Shown here: piece by piece, positions 22,177 through 63,934 of the stretch | How positions within the stretch are numbered: position 1 is the first letter of the stretch | Layout: every line of letters begins with the position of its first letter | NCBI RefSeq assembly: GCF_002443295.1 | Contig: NZ_BAOS01000005.1 | Coordinates: 62,001-126,000, forward strand | Source of the DNA: Candidatus Scalindua japonica | GTDB taxonomy: Bacteria; Planctomycetota; Brocadiia; Brocadiales; Scalinduaceae | Reading direction: 5' to 3' | Length of the DNA: 64,000 bases | Translations under genes and position numbers: made by a program | Notes under the pieces: generated by a model | The model's input: only the letters and a program-made list of their open reading frames with translations | Database searches by the model: none | Told to the model about the DNA's origin: nothing

Positions 22177-22193
22177 TTGGCACAAGTATTGCT
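22177..22193 (+). promoter_or_regulatory. Sigma-54 (RpoN) promoter
   Basis: TTGGCAC-N5-TTGCT matches the -24/-12 consensus almost exactly, with GG (22179-22180) and GC (22191-22192) separated by ten bases. The predicted transcription start is near 22204. It would drive the small open frame at 22207 and the response regulator at 22486. Confidence 0.75.
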
Positions 22194-35971: not shown

Positions 35972-38782
35972 ATGGAAAATTCAAATAATATATTACAAAA
36001 AGCATTAAAATATCATCAGGAAGGAAATTTAAATGATGCGGCAGCGTTTTATCTTCAGGTATACAAAACAAATCCGCATCACATTGATGTAGTCTTTTTA
36101 ATTGGTACTTTATATTTACAATCGGGAAAACTTGATGCTGCTGCTACATTTTTGAAAAAAGTAATTATACTCAATCCAAACCATGTAAAGGCCCACAATA
36201 ATCTTGGTATTATTTTTCAGAATCAGGGTAAACTTGATGAAGCAGTAGAAAGTTATTATAGAGCATTGAACCTTGCACCAGATAATGCTGAAGCATTCTA
36301 TAATCTAGGTACTGTATATAACAAACAGCGTAAATATGATAAGGCTCTAGAAAACTACAAACATGCAATACTCTTCAGACCGGATAACTATGATGCACAC
36401 TTAAATATTGGTAACATTTTCCAGGAACTTGGAAAACCTGAAGATGCCGCAACATGTTATAGGAAAGTAATTACACTTAAACCTGATTTCGTAATAGCGC
36501 ACAATAACCTTGGCATCGTGCTTTCCAAACTGTGTAAACATGATGACGCACTAAAAAGTTTTAGAAACGCACTAAATCTTAAGCCAGTAGACCCGAAAAT
36601 ACACAGTAATATCGCATCAGCATTGAAAGAGTCCGGCAGGCTGGATGAAGCAATGGAGAGCTGTAAAAAAGCAATTGAATTAGACTCCAATCATGCTGAA
36701 GCATACAACAATCTAGGTACTATTTTACAAAAAACCGGTAATCATGAAGATGCTATTATTAACTACAATAAGGCAATAAGACTGAAACCTGAAGACCCTG
36801 ATACACACAATAACCTGGGTTCAGCACTTAAAGAGTTGGGCAGAATTGATGAAGCCAAGGTTAGTTGCCGTCGTGCAATTGCTATTAATCCTGAATACGC
36901 AGACGCCTACAATAATCTTGGTACGATTCTTCAGGAAGAAGGCAGACTTGATGAAGCGATTACAAACTATAAACAAGTGATAATGATTAACGTTAACCAT
37001 GCCATGGCATACAGTAACCTTGGCACGGCATTGCATGAACAAGGCAAATTTGAAAAGGCGCTACAGAATTGTCAACATGCAGTAACTCTCAATCAACACC
37101 ATCCTTATTTACACAACAATTTGGGGACTATATTACAGGAATTGAGGAAGTTTGACGAAGCAATTGTAAGCTATAATCGTGCCATTGAACTTAAACCTGA
37201 CTATGCGGAAGCGTATGGCAATCTTGGTGCTGTCTATAAAAAACAGGGCAATGCTGAAGATGCTTTAACTTATTACAAGAAATCACGAGAACTAAAACCT
37301 CTTAATGCTGAGGTACACAAAAATATTGGTATCATACTAGAGGAATTTGGTAATACACATGATGCGCTTATTAGTTATCAAAAATCATTACAATTAAAAC
37401 ATAATCCGGGAATTGAAATAAAGGTAGCTCTACTACATCCCACTATAAATGAGTCGCAGGAATCTATAAAACAGTACAGAAAAAATCTCTTTAAAGGCTT
37501 AGAGGCACTGAATACCAAAGGGCTTAAGATTGAAGATCCTACGACAGAAATAGGTTCAACAAATTTCTTCCTTGTATACCAGGGGCTGGATGACAAGGAA
37601 ATACAGAAAAAAATCGCATCTTTTCATATTAATGTCTGTCCTGAACTTTCCTGGATATCACCTGACATTAATAAAGAACGTTCACAATCAAATAAAAAGA
37701 TCAAACTAGGCATAATCTCTCACTATCTTACTAACCACACTATCGGACTGTTAAACCATGGAATTATTAAACATATCTGCAGGGAACGTTTTCACGTTAC
37801 ATTATTTCGGTTTAATGACGAAGACGAGAATGCTACGTCAAAAGCCATAGATTGTGATGCAGATGATGTTATTGTGTTGCCGAGAAAGTTAAAACCTGCA
37901 CGTCAAAAAATTGCAGAATGTTCACTGGATATTTTGTTTTATCTTGAAATTGGTATGGATACTTTAACTTACTTTCTGGCGTTCTCACGTCTGGCACCGG
38001 TCCAATGTGTCACATGGGGACACCCTGTAACGACTGGAATTCCTAATATAGACTATTTTATTTCATCTGAAATGGCCGAATTGCCTGGAGCAGAAAAGCA
38101 TTACACGGAACAACTGGTCCTCCCGGACAGACTAACTATCTATTACTATCGACCCAAGCTTACACAAGAACTACGGCCAAGAGAATATTTTGGTCTACAC
38201 AAAAATTATAATCTATACGTATGCCCACAGACCCTTTTCAAATTACACCCCGATTTTGACAAAACTCTGGGAAATCTCTTACGTAAAGACAAATATGGAT
38301 TATTAGTGTTAATCGAAGGAAAATACAAACATTGGGAAAAAATGCTGCTTGACCGTTTCTCCAGAACATTTTCTGATGTTATAGCCCGTGTAAAGTTTCT
38401 ACCCAGAATGGCTACAAATGAGTATTTATCTTTACTGAATATTTCGGACGTACTTCTGGATCCACCTCACTATGGAGGCGGCAATACAAGTCTGGAGGCT
38501 TTTGCATTTAACATTCCGATTGTAACATGGCCGGGTGATTATTTACGCAGCAGACTGACTCTCGCTCTCTATAAGAAGCTAAATATAATGGAATGTGTAG
38601 TCGACAATAGTGTGTCATATGTTGATACAGCATATCGACTTGCAAATGATAAAGCATGGAGAAGTGAAATAACAGAAAGAATTAAATTGAAAGCAGATTG
38701 TTTGTATGAAGACAGGGAAAGCGTACATGAACTGGAACAATTCTTTGAAATGGCAATTGAAAAAGCATACAACAGAAAATAA
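35972..38782 (+). CDS. TPR protein with O-GlcNAc transferase (GT41/SPY-like) domain
   Basis: This 936-aa protein probably glycosylates protein Ser/Thr residues. About 14-15 TPR units (residues 10 to about 480) of the form AxxNLGxxLxxxGxxxEAIxxYxxAIxLxPxxxxA are followed by the two-lobed OGT catalytic region. That region begins around KIKLGIISHYLTNHTIG, where His matches the conserved base, and continues through APVQCVTWGHPVTTGIPNID and the donor-binding CPQTLFKLHPDF. It ends with YGGGNTSLEAFAFNIPIVTW. I prefer the ATG at 35972 to the frame's start at 35855 because the promoter falls between them. It is the first gene in the array of TPR transferases. Confidence 0.85.
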   Translation: MENSNNILQKALKYHQEGNLNDAAAFYLQVYKTNPHHIDVVFLIGTLYLQSGKLDAAATFLKKVIILNPNHVKAHNNLGIIFQNQGKLDEAVESYYRALNLAPDNAEAFYNLGTVYNKQRKYDKALENYKHAILFRPDNYDAHLNIGNIFQELGKPEDAATCYRKVITLKPDFVIAHNNLGIVLSKLCKHDDALKSFRNALNLKPVDPKIHSNIASALKESGRLDEAMESCKKAIELDSNHAEAYNNLGTILQKTGNHEDAIINYNKAIRLKPEDPDTHNNLGSALKELGRIDEAKVSCRRAIAINPEYADAYNNLGTILQEEGRLDEAITNYKQVIMINVNHAMAYSNLGTALHEQGKFEKALQNCQHAVTLNQHHPYLHNNLGTILQELRKFDEAIVSYNRAIELKPDYAEAYGNLGAVYKKQGNAEDALTYYKKSRELKPLNAEVHKNIGIILEEFGNTHDALISYQKSLQLKHNPGIEIKVALLHPTINESQESIKQYRKNLFKGLEALNTKGLKIEDPTTEIGSTNFFLVYQGLDDKEIQKKIASFHINVCPELSWISPDINKERSQSNKKIKLGIISHYLTNHTIGLLNHGIIKHICRERFHVTLFRFNDEDENATSKAIDCDADDVIVLPRKLKPARQKIAECSLDILFYLEIGMDTLTYFLAFSRLAPVQCVTWGHPVTTGIPNIDYFISSEMAELPGAEKHYTEQLVLPDRLTIYYYRPKLTQELRPREYFGLHKNYNLYVCPQTLFKLHPDFDKTLGNLLRKDKYGLLVLIEGKYKHWEKMLLDRFSRTFSDVIARVKFLPRMATNEYLSLLNISDVLLDPPHYGGGNTSLEAFAFNIPIVTWPGDYLRSRLTLALYKKLNIMECVVDNSVSYVDTAYRLANDKAWRSEITERIKLKADCLYEDRESVHELEQFFEMAIEKAYNRK

Positions 38783-57760: not shown

Positions 57761-58891
57761 ATGGGTTTAAGAATACAAAATAATATATCAGCTTTTAACT
57801 CACACAGAAATCTTAAAATTGCAGATGCCGGATTATCAAAATCGCTTGAGAAACTCTCTTCAGGTTTCAGGATTAATAAGGCATCTGATGACGCAGCAGG
57901 TCTTGCTGTATCTATGCGATTCAGATCACAGATTAAGAGTTTGCAGCAGGCAAGTAGAAATGCTACAGAAGCGAATTCAATGTTGCAGATTGCAGAAGGT
58001 GCTGCGGACCAGATAACGAATATCCTGCAGAGGATGAAGGAACTTGCTACACAAGCTGCATCTACTAACACAGGTGCTACTGACCGAAATAACATCAGCG
58101 CTGAAGTTAACAACCTTGAATCAGAAATAAGCCGAATTGCCAATTCTACAAAATATTCCGGTACATCTTTAATTGACGGTAATTTTGGATCCCTTGGTGT
58201 CAGTTCTGCAGGTAGTTTGGTCTCACAATTCGGTATAACAGCCGTTGATGTTTCTGGTGCTGCTACCGCTACAGAATATGGTATAACAGTGAGTACTGCC
58301 GGAAACAACAGTATGACAATTACAGATGGCACTACTACAGAGACGGTTTCTATCACTACAGCGTCTACAGGTCTTGATACACAGACACTGGATTTTTCAA
58401 ATCTGGGCATCAAGGTTGATGTTAATGCAGTATTCTCTAACGATACGTTGAACACAATGGATGCCGCTGCCAGCACCATGGTAACCAGCGCTACTACTAC
58501 TTCATCTTTCCAGGTTGGTTATGAGAACAACAGTAATAACAGTATCAGTTTCTCTTTGGCAGATCTGACCACAGCTGGATTAACTGCAGGTGTTGATGTA
58601 AGTTCTTTGTCTGGTGCACAAACCGCATTGACAACGATAGATACTGCTATGGATACTCTGGCTGACGCTCGCGCGACAATTGGTAAAACACAAAACCAGT
58701 TTGGTTATGCAACAGCTAACCTATCCAGTACGATTGAGAATTTGAGCGCTGCCGAATCCGTTATTCGTGATGCGGATATGGCCCTTGAAACAGTAGCGTT
58801 CACGAAGAACCAGATTCTGATGCAAGCAGGTACTTCAATGCTTGCCCAGTCTAACCAGTCACCTCAAGTAGTTTTAAGTCTGCTCGGATAA
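57761..58891 (+). CDS. fliC: Flagellin
   Basis: This 376-aa protein builds the flagellar filament. The N-terminal D0/D1 region begins GLRIQNNISAFNSHRNLKIA and carries SKSLEKLSSGFRINKASDDA. The C-terminus has VIRDADMALETVAFTKNQIL, ending in QVVLSLLG. The middle (about 145-290) is variable and very rich in Ser/Thr, plausible glycosylation acceptors. AAGGAGG precedes the ATG. A strong terminator lies 40 bp downstream. It lacks any cysteine, as usual for flagellins. It may be substrate for the transferases encoded upstream; this is inferred. Confidence 0.95.
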   Translation: MGLRIQNNISAFNSHRNLKIADAGLSKSLEKLSSGFRINKASDDAAGLAVSMRFRSQIKSLQQASRNATEANSMLQIAEGAADQITNILQRMKELATQAASTNTGATDRNNISAEVNNLESEISRIANSTKYSGTSLIDGNFGSLGVSSAGSLVSQFGITAVDVSGAATATEYGITVSTAGNNSMTITDGTTTETVSITTASTGLDTQTLDFSNLGIKVDVNAVFSNDTLNTMDAAASTMVTSATTTSSFQVGYENNSNNSISFSLADLTTAGLTAGVDVSSLSGAQTALTTIDTAMDTLADARATIGKTQNQFGYATANLSSTIENLSAAESVIRDADMALETVAFTKNQILMQAGTSMLAQSNQSPQVVLSLLG

Positions 58892-58960: not shown

Positions 58961-59146
58961 ATCAATTACCGATAGCAGAATTCATATTACAAAGTAATGA
59001 GATGTGAGTCCTGCATTGAAGAGCGGAAAATTCCGGTCATAGTGCTAAAAAATTACCCAACATAATTGAAGAAATATAAACCATTAATATCATAAGTTGT
59101 TATTGCAATAGGCGACTATAACAAAAAACTGATTGCAGTCTTATAT

Positions 59147-59160
59147 GGAATACAAATTGC
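59147..59160 (+). promoter_or_regulatory. Candidate sigma-54 promoter before the first small paralogue
   Basis: TGGAAT-N5-TTGC has GG (59147-59148) and GC (59159-59160) ten bases apart. The -12 part is good and the -24 part weak. Start predicted near 59172, 27 bases before the ATG at 59199. The region 58961-59146 shows nothing else that I can name. Confidence 0.45.
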
Positions 59161-59198
59161 GTTTTACTTTACATTGATTCTAGAAAGGACATAAAACA

Positions 59199-59438
59199 AT
59201 GGAAAATAATCTTGATAAAAGAAACTTTCTTAACTGGTACTGCTGGTATGCTACCCAGGAAGAGATAGAAAAAGCAAAACAGAACAACAGTGGGACTATA
59301 AACAGGCTAATGAATGAGTATTCGTATGAAATTGAAAAGATTAAAACAGTAAAACGTTTTCATAGTAGCCTGAAATTACCTAAAGGAATATTGCCGGAGG
59401 TTATTCCTCTTGGTTATAATTCAAATTTTGCAATCTAA
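59199..59438 (+). CDS. Small flagellar-locus protein with NWYCWYAT motif, copy 1
   Basis: This 79-aa protein is unrecognised. The core is KRNFLNWYCWYATQEEIEKA, then INRLMNEYSYEIEKIK; the C-terminus is basic and Lys-rich. A second protein of the window (62830-63039) shares this core, so it is a small family of unknown function. No signal or membrane segment is visible. AGAAAGGA lies upstream of the ATG and it precedes fliD by 19 bp. Its place suggests a role in filament assembly or its regulation. Confidence 0.75.
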   Translation: MENNLDKRNFLNWYCWYATQEEIEKAKQNNSGTINRLMNEYSYEIEKIKTVKRFHSSLKLPKGILPEVIPLGYNSNFAI

Positions 59439-59457
59439 AATCAATTAAGGAGGCGAA

Positions 59458-62400
59458 ATGCCAGGTACGAGTGCAATAGGAGGTCTGGTTTCTGGTCTTG
59501 ATACTGCAACCCTCATAGAACAGCTTATTGGTGTCAGTAGAAAACGTGTAGATATTGTTGTTAATAATCAAACGTTACAAAGCGATAAGTTGACAGCGTT
59601 TAAATCGCTCAATACTCAGCTTTCAACCTTCCAGGCAAAGGCAAAGGCTCTTACAGAAGACGACATTTTTGATGTTTTTAAGACCTCAACGTCTACAAAC
59701 TCAACAAACTTTTCATCCGATGAACTCGTTTCAATTTCAACAACATCAGACGCGAGTCCAGGCACACATACAATATCATTTACGTCCAGCTCACAGTTGG
59801 CACAGGCAAGACAGATGTCATCAATGAGTTTTACCAGCTCATCAACAGCACTGGGCCTTACCGGTGAGTTTGTCATTAACGGCAATGCTATAAGTATATC
59901 CACAACAGACTCTCTTTCTGACGTTATATCATCAATAAATACAGCAAATTCAGGCACTAATGCTACCGGTGTAACTGCGACATTAATATCTGTTTCAGAT
60001 ACTGATAACCGCATGGTCCTTACCAGCGATAATACAGGGGAAGACAAGTTTTCCATACTTGATGCGTCTTCTGATGCCGAAGATATACTGGAAGCGATGG
60101 GCCTTGCCTCAAGCACACAGTCTATCAAGAACGCTACAAGTGATGGAGCAAAGTCAGATGCATTCTCCAGCAGCAGTACCGCAGTTCAATCACTGCTTGG
60201 TTTGACAACTGCTCAAAACGGTACAGTAACTATTGGAGGAGAAAGTGTTGTTATAGACCTTTCCTCTCAATCTTTATCTACGATAGCAACTAATATTAAC
60301 ACCGCACTTACAGGGGCATCAAAAGGGACTGCCACAGTTGCCAGCACTACTACTGACGGAGTTACAACTTACCAGATTGATATTAACGGCACTACAAGTT
60401 ATACGGACACCAACAATATACTTGAAACATTAGGCATCATAAAAAGGGGTCAGAGTTCAGTCGCCGAAGAACATACCGGGTCCACAGCTAACACGAAAAC
60501 CAGTGGTGCTGGCGGAGGAGTAGTCGCCAGTGCAACAACATTTTCAGAAATTAATACCGGTAGCGACGCAAATAATGTTGCCAACAACGACACAGTTACA
60601 TTGACAGGTACAAACCATGACGGGAATGCTGTGACCGGAACATATACAATAACGGACAAGACCACTGATACAATAGATGGTCTACTGACACAGATAGAAA
60701 ATACTTTCGGCCTTGGAGCAGGCAGCGCGACAATTGATGCTTCAGGAAAGGTTATTATAACTGATGACACTACTGGTGACAGCCAGTTGAGTATTGAAAT
60801 AATTACGAATAATGAAGGCGGTGGTACCCTTGATTTTGGTACTGTTTCCGTAACTACTGAAGGTTATGATATGGAAGTAACAGCAGGCCAGGACGCAAAG
60901 ATAACAATTGACGGAATTGCTGTCTCACGGAGCAGTAATTCTATTGATGATGTCATTAGCGGTGTTACCCTTGATTTAAACCGAGTTGAGTCGGGAAGTA
61001 CGGTAAATCTGACGATCTCCAGAGATACTGACAGTATAAAATCAAGTGTAAATGACTTTGCTACCGCATACAATGATATAATTGAATTCATAAATCAGGA
61101 ATTCGCATTTAACGAAGATTCGGAAAGCGCCGGTATCCTGTCTGGTGAAAGTACTTTGAGGACAATTAAAAGTATTATTCAATCAACCATATCAGCTTCA
61201 GTACCATTACTTCCTACTGATTCCAATGCTCTCTCATTAATAGGGATAACATCGGACAAATATGGAAAGTTGTCAGTAAAAGACAGCACATTCTTAAAGA
61301 AAATTAATTCTGATTTTTATGCTGTCAAAAGGATGTTTGTCGCGGAAGGAACTACTACCAATACTGAAATTTCTTATATAAGCCACACAAAAGATACAGT
61401 TGCAGGCAACTATGCCGTGAGCATTAATACGGTTGCATCTCAGGCGTCCGAAACAGGATCTATTGTTCTTACCAATGGAATCGGGGCCGGTCTTACTGAT
61501 ACTCTGACAATTACAGATACTGCTACCAACAGGGTTGCGACAATAAGTCTTGATGGGAACGCGTCTGAGAATGGCAGCACTATTGATAATATCGTAAACG
61601 CAATAAATTCAGAACTTGATACAGAGCGGACACAAACACTTGTAGGCAGCATTGCAAATACAAAGACCACAGGCGCAGGAGGTGGAATAATAACTGCCAG
61701 TACAAAGTTTAATGAGATTAATACCGGAGGAGATGCGAATGACCTGTCTGATAATGATGTTATTTCATTTACCGGTACCAACAGGTCCGGGCTTAGTATA
61801 AGTAATTCGTATACAATCAGTGACGTCTCAACAGGTACCGTACAGGACTTTCTTTCCACGATAGAAAAAGCTTATGAAAATAGTGTATCAGCGACAATTA
61901 ATGCTTCCGGAAATATTGTGTTAACTGACATTACCGACGGTGACAGCCAAGTCTCGATTTCAATAACTGAGCCCGGTAGCCTGAATTTTGGTTCTGTAAA
62001 GACCTCCAACGAAGGCGGTGTTACCGGTAGGTACGGAATGGAGATTACAGCATCCAACGATGGCAGTGATCATCTTGTCCTTACACATGATACTTATGGG
62101 AGTGGATTTGGTTTTACCACTGTTGAGATAAATGACCTCCTGGGAACTGAGGGTACTTACAGCGGAACAGACGTTGCCGGTACAATAAATGGTGAAGCTG
62201 CTACAGGTACAGGCCAAATCCTGGTAGGCGATGCCCCATCGGATACTGAATCTTCCACGAGTATTGAAGACCTTACATTAAAAGTGACTTCCACCACTAC
62301 TGGTACAAAGGGTAATGTAAAGCTTACAATGGGAGTAGGTGAATTGATGCATAGTGATGTTGATTCAATTATTGATCAATTTGATGGGTTACTCACCATA

Positions 62401-62583
62401 AGAATGGATGGTCTGCAAGATACAATAGATGACATGCAGAATTCCATCCTGGGGATGGAAGAGCGACTGGCAATGGAAACATTGCGACTCAATGAACAAT
62501 TTGTTGCACTGGAATTAAATCTTTCAAAACTTCAATCAGTAAGCTCTTTCATGGCACAACAACTTGGTATGCTTGGCAAGTAG
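59458..62583 (+). CDS. fliD: Flagellar hook-associated protein 2 (filament cap), extra long
   Basis: FliD caps the growing filament and helps flagellin fold. This protein has 1041 aa, about twice the usual length. The N-terminus (SAIGGLVSGLDTATLIEQLI) and C-terminus (IRMDGLQDTIDDMQNSILGM, LNLSKLQSVSSFMAQQLGML) fit FliD, with the coiled-coil ends that form D0. A long Thr/Ser-rich variable middle contains an internal repeat: GSTANTKTSGAGGGVVASA and GSIANTKTTGAGGGIITAS each start a segment of about 130 residues. AAGGAGG precedes the ATG. It is read together with the small paralogue upstream. Confidence 0.92.
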   Translation: MPGTSAIGGLVSGLDTATLIEQLIGVSRKRVDIVVNNQTLQSDKLTAFKSLNTQLSTFQAKAKALTEDDIFDVFKTSTSTNSTNFSSDELVSISTTSDASPGTHTISFTSSSQLAQARQMSSMSFTSSSTALGLTGEFVINGNAISISTTDSLSDVISSINTANSGTNATGVTATLISVSDTDNRMVLTSDNTGEDKFSILDASSDAEDILEAMGLASSTQSIKNATSDGAKSDAFSSSSTAVQSLLGLTTAQNGTVTIGGESVVIDLSSQSLSTIATNINTALTGASKGTATVASTTTDGVTTYQIDINGTTSYTDTNNILETLGIIKRGQSSVAEEHTGSTANTKTSGAGGGVVASATTFSEINTGSDANNVANNDTVTLTGTNHDGNAVTGTYTITDKTTDTIDGLLTQIENTFGLGAGSATIDASGKVIITDDTTGDSQLSIEIITNNEGGGTLDFGTVSVTTEGYDMEVTAGQDAKITIDGIAVSRSSNSIDDVISGVTLDLNRVESGSTVNLTISRDTDSIKSSVNDFATAYNDIIEFINQEFAFNEDSESAGILSGESTLRTIKSIIQSTISASVPLLPTDSNALSLIGITSDKYGKLSVKDSTFLKKINSDFYAVKRMFVAEGTTTNTEISYISHTKDTVAGNYAVSINTVASQASETGSIVLTNGIGAGLTDTLTITDTATNRVATISLDGNASENGSTIDNIVNAINSELDTERTQTLVGSIANTKTTGAGGGIITASTKFNEINTGGDANDLSDNDVISFTGTNRSGLSISNSYTISDVSTGTVQDFLSTIEKAYENSVSATINASGNIVLTDITDGDSQVSISITEPGSLNFGSVKTSNEGGVTGRYGMEITASNDGSDHLVLTHDTYGSGFGFTTVEINDLLGTEGTYSGTDVAGTINGEAATGTGQILVGDAPSDTESSTSIEDLTLKVTSTTTGTKGNVKLTMGVGELMHSDVDSIIDQFDGLLTIRMDGLQDTIDDMQNSILGMEERLAMETLRLNEQFVALELNLSKLQSVSSFMAQQLGMLGK

Positions 62584-62802
62584 TTTCCGGTTAAATATCT
62601 GCAAACCATCCAGTACACCAGAGACTGAGGGCCCTGGCAAAACCCCAACCATCTTCTATAGCTTCCAGATAACCGCGGAGAAAAGAGAAAATGTGTACAG
62701 AAATACATCACTGAGAATAAGCAAAATCAGTGATACCGGAACCAACATAATATAACATTATAAATAACATAGACTTAGGAACACTTAGACTGATGGCAGT
62801 TT

Positions 62803-62816
62803 GGTACAATAATTGC
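62803..62816 (+). promoter_or_regulatory. Sigma-54 promoter before the second small paralogue
   Basis: TTGGTAC-N5-TTGCG has GG (62803-62804) and GC (62815-62816) ten bases apart, a strong match. The predicted start is near 62828, only two bases before the ATG at 62830. The preceding 62584-62800 stretch after fliD shows no gene that I can support. Confidence 0.65.
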
Positions 62817-62829
62817 GTATGATAAAATC

Positions 62830-63039
62830 ATGCAAAACAATGAACAAAGTGGTGTAATAACAGACAAAGAGATAGAAAAGAAGAATTTTCTAAGTTGGTA
62901 CTGTATGTATGCGACCAACGATGATATTGACAAAGCAAACACGATTAATAAGCCCGCTATGGACAGGCTGATTAATGAATACTCCTATGAAATCGAAAGA
63001 GTGAGTATTTCAAGAAACTTACGAGAGGAACTTTTTTAA
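62830..63039 (+). CDS. Small flagellar-locus protein with SWYCMYAT motif, copy 2
   Basis: This 69-aa protein is a paralogue of the protein at 59199: KKNFLSWYCMYATNDDIDKA aligns with the other copy, and RLINEYSYEIERV is nearly identical. The N-terminus is different and acidic. No domain is recognised. It lies between the promoter and fliS, with 20 bp to fliS. The ATG has almost no leader from the predicted start point, so translation may be leaderless. Confidence 0.72.
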   Translation: MQNNEQSGVITDKEIEKKNFLSWYCMYATNDDIDKANTINKPAMDRLINEYSYEIERVSISRNLREELF

Positions 63040-63059: not shown

Positions 63060-63485
63060 ATGGAAACAGCACAGAACAAATCATACAGGAAATTACAGGT
63101 AGAAACGGCTAGCCCGATAGACCTGGTTATAATGTTGTATGACAGGGCAATTGTTTTGTTTGATAAAGCCAGAAAAGAGATCCTAGATAAACAATATGAA
63201 GCAAAAGGCCATACTCTGAATAAAGCTACAAGTATCATTTTTGAACTGCTATCAACATTAGATAAGGAAAAAGGTGGCGAGATAGCTACTTCATTATCAG
63301 GTTTATATAACTTCGTATTACGTGAAATAACTGATGCTAATACAAACCTGAACACAAAAGCATTAGACAACGCAAAGAAAGTCATGTCTGAATTAAGGGA
63401 ATCCTGGAATAACATAAAAGACAATAAAGAGTTAGATGTTAATACCCGTGAGCATTTCAGCAGCAGTATTGACATCTCTGGATAA
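63060..63485 (+). CDS. fliS: Flagellar export chaperone FliS
   Basis: This 141-aa helical protein binds flagellin's C-terminus and keeps it unfolded for export. The start NKSYRKLQVETASPIDLVIM and the family segment LYDRAIVLFDKARKEI are typical of FliS, as is the later STLDKEKGGEIATSLSGLYN. Its length matches the family (about 120-145 aa). GAGG lies before the ATG. It is six bases from the next gene. Confidence 0.92.
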   Translation: METAQNKSYRKLQVETASPIDLVIMLYDRAIVLFDKARKEILDKQYEAKGHTLNKATSIIFELLSTLDKEKGGEIATSLSGLYNFVLREITDANTNLNTKALDNAKKVMSELRESWNNIKDNKELDVNTREHFSSSIDISG

Positions 63486-63490
63486 AGACT

Positions 63491-63934
63491 ATGGAATACC
63501 CTGAGAAGGATAATATAAAAGATACACTTTCTTATTTACATGCTAAGAAAAAGTATTACGAAAAAATTCTTGAGCTATCAGAAATCCAGGAGGAAGTTGT
63601 ACTTTCTAAAAACATAAAAAAACTCAGCTTGATAACCATGGAGAAGGAAAATTATATTAAAGAAATTAAATCTTTAGATAGAAATAATACAAAAATAGTG
63701 AAAGAGTTAAGTACAAATAACAAAAGCCTCATATTAGATAAACGAATAAATTCTTTGGTAAATCGTTTACACACTTTAGTTATTAAAGTACGAGATTACG
63801 ACCTGAATAGCATTGCTCATATAAAATCTTCACTAGAAATTACGAAAACTAAACTTAACAAAAGAAGAACAGCACAACAATCTATGAGATATCAGCCAAT
63901 CCAACCCTCCAGGTATGTAGATATAATAAAATGA
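63491..63934 (+). CDS. Probable flagellar chaperone, FliT/FlgN-like
   Basis: This 147-aa protein is entirely helical, with an amphipathic, Lys/Glu-rich pattern (KKKYYEKILELSEIQEEVVL and LVNRLHTLVIKVRDYDLNSI). Its C-terminus (MRYQPIQPSRYVDIIK) resembles the tails of FlgN-like proteins. Position right after fliS is where FliT or FlgN proteins commonly lie. The sequence is too divergent to choose between them. Its stop overlaps the next start by ATGA. Confidence 0.65.
   Translation: MEYPEKDNIKDTLSYLHAKKKYYEKILELSEIQEEVVLSKNIKKLSLITMEKENYIKEIKSLDRNNTKIVKELSTNNKSLILDKRINSLVNRLHTLVIKVRDYDLNSIAHIKSSLEITKTKLNKRRTAQQSMRYQPIQPSRYVDIIK

Follow-up and report, generated by a model that had tools for sequence, protein, structure and literature searches.

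A window of 64,000 nucleotides (nt) from Candidatus Scalindua japonica (contig NZ_BAOS01000005.1; "the window" below is this whole stretch) contains a flagellar filament locus with two small genes on the plus strand, ORF79 (79 amino acids) and ORF69 (69 amino acids). The gene order is fliC, ORF79, fliD, ORF69, fliS and a flgN-like gene, the named neighbours being assigned by Pfam (Table 1). By sequence comparison, the two proteins belong to a previously undescribed family that is confined, among the genomes sampled, to anammox bacteria. A sequence-only reading of the window had proposed two paralogues of no known family flanking fliD, and this proved accurate: the coordinates are exact, fliC, fliD and fliS are confirmed by Pfam, and the proteins are 46% identical over 54 residues without gaps (pairwise BLASTP, E = 5e-19). 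Neither protein has a match in Pfam or NCBIfam at E <= 10, and profile searches of related flagellar loci returned homologues without assigning them to a known flagellar family. Against the Scalindua orthologues, nonsynonymous divergence (dN, 0.09-0.19) is far below synonymous divergence (dS, 0.6-1.6 or saturated), so both frames are protein-coding and under purifying selection.

The same reading had noted sites of the sigma-54 type just upstream of both genes, and these are real. Both sites have the form GG-N10-GC with matching flanks, and ORF79 starts 53 nt and ORF69 28 nt behind its site. Such a site is found within 80 nt upstream of 20 of the 22 flagellar copies (from 13 genomes), and several match perfectly (TGGCACG-N4-TTGCT). 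At an equal threshold, 2.3% of random 100-nt stretches taken from the same loci have one. Transcription of ORF79 is predicted to start near 59172. The transcription start predicted for ORF69, at about 62828, lies 2 nt before the ATG, and translation from this ATG may therefore be leaderless. In L076 and L079, both of them ORF69 orthologues, a Met-Met pair nine codons further downstream provides a second start; at that point the window has GTA ATA. Two further strong sites of this type occur elsewhere in the window, at 22178-22193 (+) and 37169-37184 (-), with scores of 9.25 and 8.9.

Table 1. Features of the filament locus, in window coordinates
Feature	Position	Strand	Evidence
fliC, flagellin (neighbour)	57761..58891	+	Pfam Flagellin_N 5e-39, Flagellin_C 7.9e-24
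Sigma-54 (-24/-12) type site, 5' of ORF79-fliD	59146..59161	+	TGGAATACAAATTGCG; conserved in orthologous loci
ORF79, fliD-side flagellar paralogue, small helical family	59199..59438	+	ORF, family profile, AlphaFold2, purifying selection
fliD, filament cap, long variant, 1041 amino acids (neighbour)	59458..62583	+	Pfam FliD_C 3e-37, FliD_N 3.5e-14
Sigma-54 (-24/-12) type site, 5' of ORF69-fliS-flgN	62802..62817	+	TGGTACAATAATTGCG; conserved in orthologous loci
ORF69, fliS-side flagellar paralogue, small helical family	62830..63039	+	ORF, identity to ORF79, orthologues
fliS, flagellin chaperone (neighbour)	63060..63485	+	Pfam FliS 3.7e-34
flgN-like chaperone (neighbour)	63491..63934	+	Pfam FlgN 2.1e-7

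The most widespread copy lies in the cell-wall cluster

Members of the family were found in 47 of the 59 relatives searched, and most of them lie outside flagellar loci. The genome itself has a third copy, of 76 amino acids (L004 8887-9117), between ftsI and murE in the division and cell-wall (dcw) cluster. The order there, with gene names given by sequence comparison and our own reading instead of Pfam, is mraZ, rsmH, ftsL, ftsI, the small gene, murE, a further gene, murF, mraY, ftsW and murG. All 17 genomes of group f1, which comprises Candidatus Scalindua and relatives, carry the dcw copy, as do 28 loci of group f5 (which includes Brocadia, Jettenia and Kuenenia); no Brocadiaceae-type dcw locus read is without it. 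In one f5 genome that has no such gene (G057), a full-length murE match is missing as well. In two genomes of a third family, f4, this position is occupied by a divergent gene (E 6.5e-8 and 2.6e-4), which lacks the WY core and keeps a tail of the form VQ[EG]YDVTL.IS. As a conserved small gene inside this cluster, the dcw copy resembles a dcw accessory gene, but f2, f3 and the other planctomycetes read have no such gene, and the ftsI-murE gap is empty in f2 and most of the others. Searches of 392 genomes of the phylum gave no convincing member outside the order, only weak fragments inside long ORFs; plasmid and phage searches gave none, and IMG/VR a single phage contig. We found no literature on the family gene in anammox bacteria. 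Anammox cells contain peptidoglycan, and their division does not involve FtsZ. A small protein that keeps its place between ftsI and murE across the two main anammox families, and that no other planctomycete sampled shares, is thus a direct candidate for a lineage-specific factor of the cell wall or of division. The further gene between murE and murF (L004:10668-11708), transglutaminase-like by eye, is an additional feature of Scalindua; the dcw clusters read from Brocadiaceae did not show it.

In group f1 the gap between ftsI and the dcw copy (163-193 nt) holds an element of about 107 nt (L004:8741-8848 (+) in this genome), with about 70 positions invariant across four genera. It differs between genera at 13-14% of positions, compared with 36-40% for the adjacent small gene. 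The folding z-scores range from -5.5 to -6.7 and 98.9% of the pairs are kept; the conservation is mostly at the level of sequence, with weak covariation. Each of the 17 genomes has one such site (one interrupted by a contig end) and no comparable score elsewhere, while the other families examined lack it and Rfam has no match. The element includes a strong Shine-Dalgarno-like stretch together with a short frame that begins with ATG (MVKNAGR-stop in most genomes, truncated in two). We regard it as a candidate for either a cis-regulatory or a small RNA in Scalindua.

Duplicates in flagellar, gas-vesicle and other loci

Among the f1 genomes, a copy adjoins fliD in all 12 that have this gene and in none of the five that lack it. 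The ORF79-type copy always directly precedes a long FliD, and long FliD occurs where the flagellar paralogue occurs; orthologues of ORF69 are found 5' of fliS in 8 loci of the Scalindua family. The f5 fliD genes are short (about 600 amino acids) and have no adjoining copy, except in G039, a Brocadiaceae-type genome whose locus (L048) is of the Scalindua type, with an adjoining copy and a FliD of about 1038 amino acids, whereas its relatives have short FliD or none. Horizontal transfer is a possible origin of this locus. The co-occurrence with fliD is partly explained by linkage, and is an association and not proof of joint function.

Other copies lie in very different places. Two Jettenia-type genomes (g16; L037 and L041) have one between a gvpA/J-type gene and gvpK, Scalindua has one between dnaA and a UDP-glucose dehydrogenase gene, and Kuenenia (g12) has orphan copies beside mgsA. 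The phage copy (L066:677-985) sits in an early regulatory region, next to the genes of a Mor-like activator and of an anti-repressor; its contig, which also has terminase, portal and head genes, comes from a Brocadia-type genome and is identical to IMGVR_UViG_2706794884_000001 (L139). The gvpK-side copy is present in only 2 of the 14 genomes with GvpK, and we reject a general gas-vesicle factor on this ground. A strong sigma-54 site also precedes the orphan mgsA-side copy in three Kuenenia genomes; the gas-vesicle copies have a weak one only, and nothing convincing lies close to the start of the dcw or dnaA copies. The position beside filament genes emphasized by the sequence-only reading is correct for ORF79 and ORF69 but not for the family overall: because the widespread copy is the dcw one, and others are found at gas-vesicle, dnaA, mgsA and prophage loci, a flagellum-specific role for the whole family is unsupported.

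The tree groups the copies by locus, with 7 changes, the minimum possible, against a mean of 32.7 after shuffling. The gas-vesicle copies and the copy of L062 nest within the f5 dcw copies, which indicates that the dcw copy or its relatives gave rise to duplicates time and again. The dcw copy is most likely the founder because of its wider distribution, although the root of the tree is not fixed. That copies have entered flagellar, gas-vesicle and phage loci in this way, more than once, suggests a module that is portable and of general use.

A small hydrophilic protein with three predicted helices

Family members have 55-105 amino acids. Across 71 of them N9 and F10 are invariant, W13 is nearly so, and Y17, A18 and T19 are common. 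The WYC cysteine, in contrast, is kept in 12 of the 14 fliD-side and 6 of the 8 fliS-side copies, whereas the dcw copies show S, G or a gap at this position, and F occurs among other members. The earlier suggestion that the aromatic-cysteine block binds a metal is therefore unlikely, and we rejected such a site because the cysteine is not conserved while N9, F10 and W13 are. The C-terminal tail depends on the locus: it reads QKFDLSLKIS in copies of the dcw cluster and LPKGILPEF.PL in those beside fliD, and the fliS copies have no tail. In the 17 f1 genomes, the dcw tail motif matches the dcw copies only and no other protein. The proteins are hydrophilic (grand average of hydropathy -0.7 to -1.0), have no hydrophobic segment suggestive of a membrane or secretion signal, and have isoelectric points between 4.7 and 8.7 (median 6.3). 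AlphaFold2 predicts three helices (residues 2-17, 20-40 and 42-57) with a core pLDDT (predicted local distance difference test) of 92-96, followed by a disordered tail. No credible known family was found for the two ORFs or the 71 members in Pfam or NCBIfam, nor for the family in PHROGs; isolated weak matches (keratin coiled coil, CUX1, Rsa3, Ntox28) were taken as chance matches of helical proteins.

A possible adaptor of assembly operons or a possible regulator of gene expression

We tentatively propose, with a probability of about 0.35, that the family is a lineage-specific cytoplasmic module of the adaptor or co-chaperone type, which binds proteins, possibly including itself, and serves the assembly operons in which it is encoded. 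The family arose in anammox bacteria, most likely with the founding copy between ftsI and murE, and duplicates entered the filament locus before the Scalindua genera split. There each of them came to lead a sigma-54 transcript (ORF79-fliD and ORF69-fliS-flgN), a position by which the protein is produced along with the filament cap and the late chaperones. The helix-turn-helix face carrying NF..WY..YAT may bind a putative partner or self-associate. The C-terminal tail, which diverges between loci, could give locus specificity, such that each copy acts on the assembly machine encoded alongside. We count in favor of an adaptor the third copy in the dcw cluster of the genome itself, the distribution of the dcw and flagellar copies among the relatives, the locus-grouped tree, the conserved sigma-54 sites, the predicted three-helix core with its disordered tail, the dcw tail kept in f4 and specific to the dcw copies in f1, and the hydrophilicity of the proteins. 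Several points weigh against it. The contexts vary widely (cell wall, flagellum, gas vesicle, dnaA, mgsA, phage), and a regulator of gene expression would fit them equally. Physical linkage by itself would be enough to produce the co-occurrence with fliD. Most f5 genomes carry fliD but no flagellar copy and most gvp clusters have no copy, hence flagella and gas vesicles do not generally require the protein.

A regulatory role, which was among the functions raised by the sequence-only reading, is nearly as likely as that of an adaptor. Each copy could bind RNA, RNA polymerase, a sigma factor or an activator, and exert feedback on the operon that it leads. The place of the flagellar copies at the head of sigma-54 transcripts fits this idea, as do the orphan Kuenenia copy with a sigma-54 site of its own and the prophage copy, which adjoins a Mor-like late activator and an anti-repressor. 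The position of the Scalindua dcw copy directly behind a strongly conserved structured RNA points in the same direction, but this element occurs at the dcw copy only. The proteins also have no match to a DNA- or RNA-binding family and no consistently basic character, as their isoelectric points show, and FlgM is encoded separately.

Resemblance to the VEL domain

The nearest known relative, although below significance, and the only outside one that recurs, is the plant VEL domain (VIN3/VEL1/VRN5; Pfam PF23380, VIN3_C). We treat it as a lead and not as evidence of membership. Both are small and all-helical, and the FLTWYSLRATxxE motif of VEL aligns with the helix-turn-helix of the family as F-[LI]-x-W-Y-x-x-x-A-T-x-x-E. 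VEL is the top PDB match by profile and by fold: searching the whole PDB with the 71-member profile ranked five VEL chains of VIN3/VEL1 first (E 0.001-0.006), and Foldseek with the model of the dcw copy ranked six VEL chains first of 350,542, but with E values of 0.5-2.1. An HH comparison of the family with VEL gave a probability of 93% and a single-comparison E of 2.5e-7, about 0.01 when corrected for tens of thousands of families, and none of 150 column shuffles scored as high. Several of the top matches in the reverse search with PF23380 were family members, all below the cut-off.

There are also differences. Only 21-30 residues align, and VEL forms a bundle of four helices, about 70 amino acids long, within larger plant proteins, whereas the family consists of stand-alone bacterial proteins with three predicted helices, the model lacking VEL helix 1. 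The PF23380 cut-off (27 bits) was reached in none of 61 genomes, the best E being 0.0072 for a fliS-side copy in G009, and 23 of the 71 members matched at E >= 0.015 only. Structural superposition on VEL by VIA-align gave a Z of only 4.1 and a root-mean-square deviation of 6.9 over 57 residues, and Foldseek found no match for the ORF79 model.

The head-to-tail polymerization of VEL domains depends on R554, R556 and further residues (PMC7614096), and the family could likewise self-associate through a VEL-type helical surface, its members polymerizing or oligomerizing into scaffolds or condensates. The rankings above would favor this idea, which we nevertheless consider rather unlikely, since every search fell below or at the border of significance and, of the two basic head residues of VIN3 needed for polymerization, R554 aligns with the near-invariant K7 but R556 with the invariant N9. 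More improbable still is the stronger version, that of a stand-alone prokaryotic relative of VEL which self-assembles head to tail to provide switchable scaffolds for division and cell-wall, flagellar and gas-vesicle assembly in hosts without FtsZ. If the likeness did reflect homology, a polymerizing domain of plant chromatin silencing would gain a bacterial counterpart.

Flagellar chaperones and FlgM

It is improbable that the flagellar copies are dedicated export chaperones replacing FliT, with ORF79 binding FliD. No FliT scored above cut-off in the genome, ORF79 has its constant position before the long FliD, and the proteins are small, helical and adjoin export substrates, like FliT itself (PF05400), the FliD chaperone. 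But the sequences do not match significantly: the FliT profile hit only 3 of the 71 members, with E >= 0.05 (best 0.051). Furthermore, the general copy of the family is the dcw one, and most f5 fliD genes have no adjoining copy. Replacement of FliT is therefore possible only for ORF79 and leaves the family as a whole unexplained. The idea that the proteins replace FlgM (PF04316, anti-sigma-28), which is also a small flagellar regulatory protein, as anti-sigma factors can be dismissed: neither ORF matched the Pfam model at the threshold given above, and a true FlgM is encoded by a separate gene elsewhere on the same contig (G000:C5:165924).

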